From contig JAFIGG010000019.1 of NCBI GenBank assembly GCA_020831485.1, positions 1 to 51,143 on the forward strand: a stretch of 51,143 nucleotides of DNA, written 5' to 3'. The notes beneath the pieces are model-generated. The model saw only the letters and a list, made by a program, of their open reading frames with translations, made no database searches and was not told the DNA's origin. How positions within the stretch are numbered: position 1 is the first letter of the stretch; every line of letters begins with the position of its first letter. This document shows positions 30,739 through 32,368 of the stretch, one piece after another. The position numbers and the translations under genes were made by a program. The stretch is from Opitutales bacterium. GTDB lineage: Bacteria; Verrucomicrobiota; Verrucomicrobiia; Opitutales; Oceanipulchritudinaceae.

Positions 30739-30836
30739 GGGCCGGGTCCTATGCAACGCCGGACCGGTGAACTCCGCCAGGGCCGGAAGGCAGCAACGGT
30801 AGCCAGGATCCGCGTGTGCCGTAGGTAGCCTGGCCC
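30739..30836 (+). ncRNA. ffs: Bacterial small signal recognition particle RNA (4.5S-like)
   Basis: The apical core of the bacterial SRP RNA is present: 'CCGCCAGGGCCGGAAGGCAG' followed by 'CAACGGTAGCCAGGATCC' and 'GCGTGTGCCGTAGG'. The GGAA tetraloop of the Ffh-binding hairpin is in GGCCGGAAGGC. The closing stem pairs GGGCCGGG (30739-30746) with CCTGGCCC (30829-30836), giving a hairpin of about 98 bases. A T-rich tract (TTTTTATTTC) follows directly and can end transcription. It lies 18 bases before dnaX, an order also seen in Bacillus and other bacteria. The ends are set by the stem and may differ by a few bases. Confidence 0.95.
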
Positions 30837-30854
30837 TTTTTATTTCTTTTTTCT

Positions 30855-31991
30855 ATGTCTGGATATCAGGTAATTGCCCGACGCTGGAGACCGAAGTCCT
30901 TTGATGACCTTGTCGGTCAGGATCATATTGTCCGCACGCTTAAAAATGCGATCGAGACTCAGCGAATCGCGCACGCCTACTTGTTTGTCGGGCCGCGTGG
31001 AACGGGCAAGACTTCCACCGCACGGGTCTTTGCCAAGGCCCTGAATGCCGAGGGCGGACCCAGTGCGAGCCCCTCGGAGGACTCCGAAATCAGCAAGGCC
31101 ATCATGTCCGGCAGTTGCATGGATGTGATCGAGATCGACGGGGCTTCCAATAATTCAGTCGAGCAGGTGCGTGACCTTCGCGAAGAGTGTCAGTACGCGC
31201 CAGCCCAGTGTACCTACAAAATCTACATCATTGACGAGGTGCACATGCTCTCGGCCGCTGCTTTTAATGCTTTGCTGAAGACGCTTGAGGAGCCACCGCC
31301 ACACGTGAAGTTTATTTTCGCGACAACTGAGTCGCAGAAGGTACTGCCGACCATTGTATCGCGCTGTCAGCGCTTTGAATTCCGACCTATTTCCGATGCG
31401 GTGATTGTTGAGCGCTTGACGGAGATCGCCAAGAGCGAGGGCATTGAGGCTGCACCCGAAGCACTTGAAGGCATTGCCCGCCTGGCCAATGGGGGAATGC
31501 GCGACGCCCAGAGTATCCTGGACCAGATGATTTCATTTTGCGGCAAGCAGATCGGTGAGAGCGATGTATTGGATGTCTATGGGCTTGTGAGTTCCGAGAC
31601 GATTGACCAGTTGGGGCGCAACCTTATCGCGGCTGATTACCCTGCCATTATCCAGACAGTGGATACGCTGGCGCAGGAGGGCAGGGATCTTTTCCGCGTT
31701 CTTCAGGATCTGGAAGTGCGGCTGCGAACGGCAATGCTGGATGCGGTGCGCAACCGAGGAGAAACAGACTCCCTGGGCAAGAAGGCATCGGTGGAAACCC
31801 TGATGCGGATGCTGGAAGCTTTGCAAAGCAGTGAGTATTCGGTGCAAAAGGGCCTTTCTGAAAAGGTTAATTTTGAAGTGGCCTTGCTCAAGGCAGTCGA
31901 TGCCGGGCGCATGCGGGCAATCGATGCTTTGATCCGTGAACTGACAGAAATGGGCGAGAGTCACGAGGGGTCCGAAAAAAAAAAGACCTGA
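30855..31991 (+). CDS. dnaX: DNA polymerase III clamp-loader subunit gamma (dnaX, zero-frame product)
   Basis: A 378-residue AAA+ clamp-loader ATPase. It has '[20 protein letters not shown]' at the start, Walker A GPRGTGKT (46-53), Walker B '[20 protein letters not shown]', '[13 protein letters not shown]' (sensor 1/SRC) and '[14 protein letters not shown]' (sensor 2). Domain III runs to about 370. The zinc-module region between Walker A and 'VIEIDGASN' normally carries four cysteines; here it reads '[17 protein letters not shown]' (64-80) with none. The zero frame ends with GSEKKKT and TGA at 31989. A slip site just before the stop lets a longer tau form be made. It follows the SRP RNA closely. 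Confidence 0.95.
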
Positions 31992-32020
31992 TTCCTGACG
32001 AATCCTACCTCGAGCAGGTA
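31965..32020 (+). promoter_or_regulatory. dnaX -1 frameshift (recoding) site
   Basis: A run of ten A (31975-31984) followed by G contains, in the zero frame, the heptamer A AAA AAG (31979-31985), the same slip sequence as in E. coli dnaX. A Shine-Dalgarno-like GAGGGG (31965-31970) lies 8 bases upstream, comparable to the stimulatory element of E. coli. Downstream, TACCT/AGGTA (32006-32020, 5-base loop) can form a small hairpin, and ACCTG (31986-31990) could instead pair with CAGGT (32015-32019). The -1 frame is open from here to 32368. The long A-run may also allow transcriptional slippage, as in Thermus dnaX. The heptamer and the open frame are seen directly; activity is inferred. Confidence 0.75.
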
Positions 32021-32368
32021 ATTCCCATAGTTACGCAGGAAGCTCCGGAAGCGGTTGCTGTTGCGGAAGCGCCGCCACTGGTTTCAACCCCGGAAGTTAT
32101 GGCGGATGAAGACGGGGAGGGCCGCTTCGACAATGATGCCGAGTACTTTGAGGCCTTGATCAATGGCGACGAAACTATTCCTCCGGACGATCCAATTCAT
32201 GTCGAACTCGCCTCAGGCCTATCCTCTGAGGAGGCCAGAGGGCCTTTGATGAGTGTGGATGAAGCGATGGCTTGCCTGTCACCAGAACTGAGGGAAGTGT
32301 TGGACGATCGTTTGCGAGCGGATTTTCGGGAAGTGCGTCCGTATCGCGGCCAAAAGAAAGATTTTTGA
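31985..32368 (+). CDS. dnaX: DnaX tau-specific C-terminal extension (-1 frame)
   Basis: 127 codons are open in the -1 frame directly after the slip site, starting [16 protein letters not shown] and ending '[17 protein letters not shown]'. Joined to the first 377 zero-frame residues this gives a tau of about 504 residues. The segment is acidic with an Ala/Pro-rich linker ('[17 protein letters not shown]') and then a folded-looking end ('[19 protein letters not shown]'). E. coli tau is 643 residues, with separate DnaB- and alpha-binding domains; those are not recognisable here, so the extension may be a shorter lineage version. An internal ATG at 32099 exists, but independent translation seems unlikely. 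If the A-run were truly 11 long, the whole would be one ordinary gene. Confidence 0.72.

Follow-up and report, generated by a model that had tools for sequence, protein, structure and literature searches.

Recoding within dnaX is classical, and in both Escherichia coli and Thermus thermophilus the zero frame of the gene encodes tau while slippage gives rise to gamma. In E. coli the site is described as the heptamer A AAA AAG accompanied by an upstream Shine-Dalgarno (SD) site and a stem-loop (PMC5009743, PMC3711429), whereas the gene of T. thermophilus carries a run of nine A at the gamma/tau border, with early stops in the other frames and two products for which slippage of RNA polymerase has been demonstrated (PMC1088944, PMC5009743). 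The opposite arrangement, in which a stop comes early in the zero frame and the tail of tau is encoded in -1, so that tau depends on recoding, was already reported in 2013 for a GeneTack cluster of two-ORF dnaX genes (17 genes from 12 genera; Antonov et al., PMC3711429). According to that paper, 12 of the 17 genes have a poly-A stretch, of ten A in nine of them, and transcriptional realignment was proposed. Its authors read a conserved direction of frameshifting as ribosomal and a mixed direction as transcriptional realignment (PMC3711429), and a single-base change is stated to be able to swap the roles of the frames when slippage is near 50% (PMC5009743).

The dnaX gene considered here lies in a stretch of 51,143 nucleotides from an Opitutales bacterium (contig JAFIGG010000019.1), which was analysed as a whole and is referred to as the window. 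The gene is identified by a match to NCBIfam dnaX_nterm (2.1e-125) and by matches to the Pfam families delta2, lid and gamma3, and its features are collected in Table 1. The first-pass annotation had described a run of ten A with the zero-frame stop just downstream, an in-phase A AAA AAG heptamer with GAGGGG 8 bases upstream of it, a -1 frame open over 127 codons, and a gamma of 378 residues together with a tau of roughly 504 residues from one gene. All of these are recovered in the window: the zero frame ends in GAG GGG TCC GAA AAA AAA AAG ACC TGA, the spacing from GAGGGG to the heptamer is 8 bases, the stops after the run come at two codons in the zero frame and at four codons in the +1 frame, and the predicted lengths were recomputed as 378 and, for the joined product, 504 residues. 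A point absent from that annotation is the reversal with respect to E. coli and Thermus, gamma here coming from the zero frame. The arrangement is that of the GeneTack cluster; like Thermus it has two predicted products, a long run of A where gamma and tau part, and stops soon after it in the other frames, though in Thermus tau is in the zero frame, and it shares with E. coli the in-phase heptamer and, in weak form, the SD-like stretch upstream, though with the frame roles reversed and with no stem-loop. The 3.86 Mb assembly has only 12 runs of at least nine A or T, three of them of ten, and this rarity, together with recurrence of the run in the relatives described below, places the A-run at the dnaX border beyond chance.

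Table 1. Positions of the dnaX features in the window
Feature	Position	Strand	Remarks
dnaX zero frame, gamma-like product of 378 aa (predicted)	30855..31991	+	ATG at 30855; AAA+ clamp-loader ATPase, lid, domain III
GAGGGG	31965..31970	+	weak Shine-Dalgarno-like stretch, 4-base match
A10 slippery run (putative)	31975..31984	+	at least nine A kept in 141 of 147 order dnaX genes (closer matches)
A AAA AAG heptamer	31979..31985	+	phase required for -1 slippage of the ribosome; results from A10 followed by G
Zero-frame TGA ending the short product	31989..31991	+	
Tau tail, -1 frame, 127 aa + stop	31985..32368	+	open 31985-32365, stop 32366-32368; Pro/acidic linker, weakly conserved C-terminal motif of ~35 aa

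The occurrence of the run was examined in an order sample of Opitutales-like Verrucomicrobiota. Among 196 genomes searched, 184 had a dnaX match and 12, including the single-contig G223, had none at an E-value of 1e-60; 177 of the 184 were examined. A first set of 147 genes comprised the gene in the window, 16 members of the window's family and 130 taken from the closer matches among those listed, and a further 30 genes were taken from the most distant families of the order, all but one of them in genomes of 0.7-1.1 Mb. Fragments or duplicates of counted genes (L022, L023, L025) and second dnaX matches in G243, G245, G271 and G310 were kept outside the tallies. The run was sought in the stretch around codons 330-440. 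In 141 of the 147 closer matches a run of at least nine A lies at codons 365-389 (query numbering), two others have eight A and four have no such run; three of the 147 genes are cut by contig ends. The distant order genes have a run of at least nine A in 8 of 30 cases (seven from family f67, all with a -1 tail, and one from f62 with a +1 tail), and most of the other 22 have a short continuous frame. Other orders of the class contributed 30 genes, which have no run of at least eight A in the stretch examined and have one long frame (that of L247 being cut by the contig); one of these genes, L271, has a run of nine A elsewhere in its 3' part. Based on these counts in the order, its distant families and other orders, the A-run is an order feature in this sample that has been lost in some reduced lineages.

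Among the reduced-genome families f55, f66, f68 and f69, the genes L332-L345, L347, L352 and L355-L360 have no run of at least nine A in the stretch examined, two of them having eight A. Such genes mostly have a short tail in one frame, and three (L342, L344, L358) stop near codon 358-368.

The position of the tau tail relative to gamma is not fixed in the order. Across 140 order genes the tail is in the -1 frame in 64, in the zero frame in 45 and in the +1 frame in 31; one family includes all three frames, and four others have two each. On a gamma-core tree (FastTree, 139 rows, modest support; L024 was too short to be included) the observed labels require 14 changes of frame, whereas shuffled labels need 61.8; the minimum number forced by the starred branches is 9 with the zero label, 7 with +1 and 4 with -1. 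Close relatives can differ by a single A and by frame. For example, the sister species represented by L240 (A11, zero) and L241 (A10, -1) have 97.5% core identity, L134, L136 and L141 (A9, zero) are 90% identical to their sister L153 (A10, +1), and L132 (A11, -1) is 89-94% identical to its sisters L144 and L147-L150 (A10, +1), although some of these single-A differences could be assembly errors since the named relatives are mostly metagenome-assembled genomes (MAGs).

Irrespective of frame, the tails are homologous protein sequences. The profile of the zero-frame tails matches 51 of 63 -1 tails and 26 of 31 +1 tails with an E-value of 1e-3 or better, that of the -1 tails matches 39 of 45 zero tails and 15 of 31 +1 tails at the same threshold, and that of the +1 tails likewise matches 36 of 45 zero and 35 of 63 -1 tails; none of the three profiles matched a shuffled decoy. 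In this search L243 was relabelled zero after its family, whereas it is counted as -1 in the RNA-structure and frame-closure figures; L190 (A8), for which the automatic frame call was wrong, was relabelled zero in the latter two counts. Tails of all three frames comprise a Pro/acidic linker and, delineated by eye, a motif spanning some 35 residues at the C-terminal end, and an alignment of 25 tails has a mean column identity of 18% and no invariant column. In 30 non-overlapping close pairs (14 in -1, 7 in +1 and 9 in zero), substitutions at the first, second and third codon positions of the tau frame number 465/371/873 for -1, 216/162/385 for +1 and 345/276/640 for zero tails. The third-position excess follows the tau frame in each of the three groups, and the shifted frame is thus very probably translated and under selection. 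The tail presumably does the work of tau. Comparison of the order's tail with the C-terminal part of tau from other orders did not show homology (best HMMER domain i-E 0.0085, hhalign probability 3.4); neither Pfam nor NCBIfam gave a match for the tail in the window (best Pfam E-value 0.1), and a search with the tail alignment against the PDB gave no relative (best E-value 2.1).

These comparisons also bear on whether the interruption could be spurious, that is, whether an assembly or sequencing error or DNA-level phase variation hides what is really a single frame, or whether the tail has decayed and is dead. Long A-runs are error-prone, and the 80 named relatives (labelled Opitutales, Opitutaceae, Puniceicoccaceae or Opitutia), of which 75 have a run of at least nine A in the stretch examined, are mostly MAGs. 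However, among the 11 genomes read that consist of no more than two contigs, 10 have the run (7 with a -1, 2 with a +1 and 1 with a zero tail), which disfavours assembly error, and 55 of 63 pairs with a core identity of at least 0.90 agree in both run and frame, these pairs not being independent. The third-position excess in the -1 tails is also at odds with decay. One of the 75 named relatives with the run, the isolate Cephaloticoccus primus (L075), has ten A and a -1 tail. We therefore regard this group of explanations as extremely improbable, DNA-level phase variation being a weak alternative among them.

Thus, slippage at the A-run very probably yields a short and a long protein from one gene, and the short gamma-like and long tau-like DnaX subunits are probably produced through RNA polymerase slipping on the ten A. 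RNA polymerase would then generate transcripts with varied numbers of A. Those with 10 (or 10+3n) A would reach the TGA two codons on and give the gamma of 378 residues, those with 11 (or 8, 14 and so on) A would enter the -1 frame and give tau, of 504 residues in the case of 11 A, and the remaining transcripts would stop after four codons and thereby also make a gamma-like protein. That RNA polymerase rather than the ribosome is the slipping machine, and the ratio of the products, are what we infer from the sequences. The polymerase is favoured by the mixed -1, zero and +1 direction of the tails, a pattern published as a mark of transcriptional realignment, and by the rapid closure of both other frames after the run. 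For 123 of 138 genes, both frames not used by tau reach a stop within 10 codons of the run; at control positions taken from the same tails this is so in 11.9%. Among the genes with a -1 tail, the +1 frame, which is of no use to a -1 shift, has its stop at a median of 5 codons versus 20; the weakest comparison is that of the -1 frame in the zero group, whose closure is only somewhat early (median 4 versus 10, mean percentile 0.33). Ribosomes sliding in both directions on poly-A lysine codons, with the RNA unchanged, would yield all frames and so would also permit -1, zero and +1 tails, and sliding on A stretches has been published (PMC4363877); we nevertheless consider this quite improbable as the explanation here.

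The reading put forward in the first-pass annotation, programmed -1 frameshifting by the ribosome at A AAA AAG with help from the upstream GAGGGG, in which frameshifting would give tau and zero-frame termination gamma, with the roles of E. coli reversed, is in our view unlikely. The heptamer is in phase, the weak SD-like site is 8 bases upstream, every tail of the window's family is in the -1 frame, and a dnaX gene of Chlorobium whose signals resemble those of E. coli and whose frames have swapped roles has been cited as unpublished (PMC5009743). However, A AAA AAG is in phase in only 2 of 16 genes of the window's family and in 34 of the 64 genes with a tail classed as -1, and 17 of these 64 have A AAA AAC, which is described as far less shift-prone in E. 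coli (PMC5009743). All 64 genes classed as -1 (L015 being classed apart) retain at least nine A where seven would do, despite the preference for AAG, which is the commoner lysine codon in the dnaX genes of the window's family (AAA share 0.29). Conservation of run length and not of the heptamer, although AAG is preferred, favours RNA polymerase. In addition, the +1 tails of 31 of 140 relatives are out of reach of a -1 shift. What stands of the earlier proposal is one gene with two predicted products and slippage at a run that is conserved in relatives and is no sequencing slip, whereas the E. coli-type frameshift with an SD-like helper is its weaker part: in the comparison of relatives the A-run was retained, but the SD-like site is at the level expected from the amino acids and the -1 tail is confined to 64 of the 140 genes.

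The SD-like sites and RNA structure around the run were evaluated across the order. Before amino-acid correction, the family-mean rate of SD-like sites is 0.44 versus 0.17 elsewhere; in total this signal is gone once the encoded amino acids are kept, and a conserved SD stimulator was accordingly rejected. In the window's family 6 of 16 genes have such a site, against 6.3 expected from the encoded amino acids, and in 138 genes 58 are observed against 53.2 expected with amino acids kept. By family, f4 (10 versus 3.4) and f50 (11 versus 7.0) are above and f2 (1 versus 4.7) is below expectation. No stem-loop was found 3' of the window site (z 0.20 for 60 nt) and the upstream side gives a z of 1.13, so that RNA structure as a general stimulator was rejected for the window, as it was for most families; the group mean z for downstream structure ranges from -0.24 to -0.49, with the lowest family means in f56 (-1.17) and f5 (-1.08). 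SD-like sites at amino-acid expectation and a window with no stem-loop both argue for polymerase slippage over a ribosomal shift.

Genes of f5, f64 and f4 (L131, L133, L168, L173 and others) have a GC-rich hairpin abutting the 5' side of the A-run, which is absent in the window. The family mean z of the upstream hairpin is -2.60 in f5 (10 genes), -4.31 in f64 (1 gene), -1.44 in f6 and -0.99 in f4, and a hairpin in this position is a possible helper of polymerase slippage.

Two observations from the window's own family count against polymerase slippage. First, this family is uniformly -1: all 16 of its genes with a run have a -1 tail. Second, L015, which belongs to this family and lacks the run, also has an intact -1 tail past the site CTA AAA AAC GCC TGA (codons ~374-378), with six A only; long-run slippage offers no explanation for this tail, and the A AAA AAC of L015 is compatible with a -1 ribosomal frameshift. 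Either ribosomes shift there, or tau has been lost, or the site is misassembled. The tRNA complement is relevant as well, since the presence of tRNA-Lys-CUU has been suggested to disfavour slippage on AAG (PMC5009743). All 12 near-complete order genomes have this tRNA, as do 14 of 17 genomes of the window's family, including that of L015 (G001; L395), but it was not found in the window's assembly, which is 96.8% complete and has 42 tRNA matches with tRNA-Lys-UUU only; the other family genomes with no match are G003 and G008. The AAG of the window may consequently be as slippery as in E. coli. Given the missing tRNA-Lys-CUU match and the six-A site of L015 with its intact -1 tail, ribosomes may still have a part in slippage in the window's species.

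Taking the order as a whole, it appears on balance more likely than not that RNA-polymerase slippage on this one A-run sets the ratio of two core replisome subunits throughout the order, and scrambles the frame so strongly that the DNA frame of tau hardly matters. Selection would then maintain the run, and tau would wander over the three frames through single-base insertions and deletions of a kind that most other genes would not survive. In the GeneTack cluster only the -1 version is described (PMC3711429), whereas the Opitutales-like order has -1, zero and +1 versions, and we found no description of an order-wide swapping of tau among three frames in the literature searched. Nor did the literature searched hold a report of dnaX recoding for this lineage; the main text of PMC3711429 does not contain 'Opitut', and has the Verrucomicrobia word stem only in a count table, though the nine ten-A sequences in its supplement may include an Opitutales member. 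The order constitutes a natural experiment in which the same site has its long product in each of the three frames, and allows one to ask whether slippage by RNA polymerase makes the frame selectively neutral and how the gamma:tau ratio is maintained. A gene finder that reads a single frame would call most of these dnaX genes short, and tau is therefore probably missing from the annotation in much of the order.

Some further features of the locus and genome may be mentioned. An SRP RNA gene of the small bacterial type is found at 30740-30838 (Rfam match), and dnaX begins 16 bases 3' of it. In the stretch 31030-31140 of the window, which we take to be the DnaX zinc module, the zinc-module cysteines are missing except for one near the end of the stretch. 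With a crude pattern, the corresponding stretch in 140 order cores has one cysteine in 80, none in 3, two in 17, three in 12 and four in 9, with 19 unmatched, and the same crude pattern finds four cysteines in 6 of the 30 dnaX genes of other orders, 12 of these being unmatched. Elsewhere in the genome of the window's organism, a run of nine A lies at positions 1501-1509 of L326 in a minus-strand frame that runs from stop to stop over 519 codons, with 20 codons left to its end, and this is possibly a second slippage gene.
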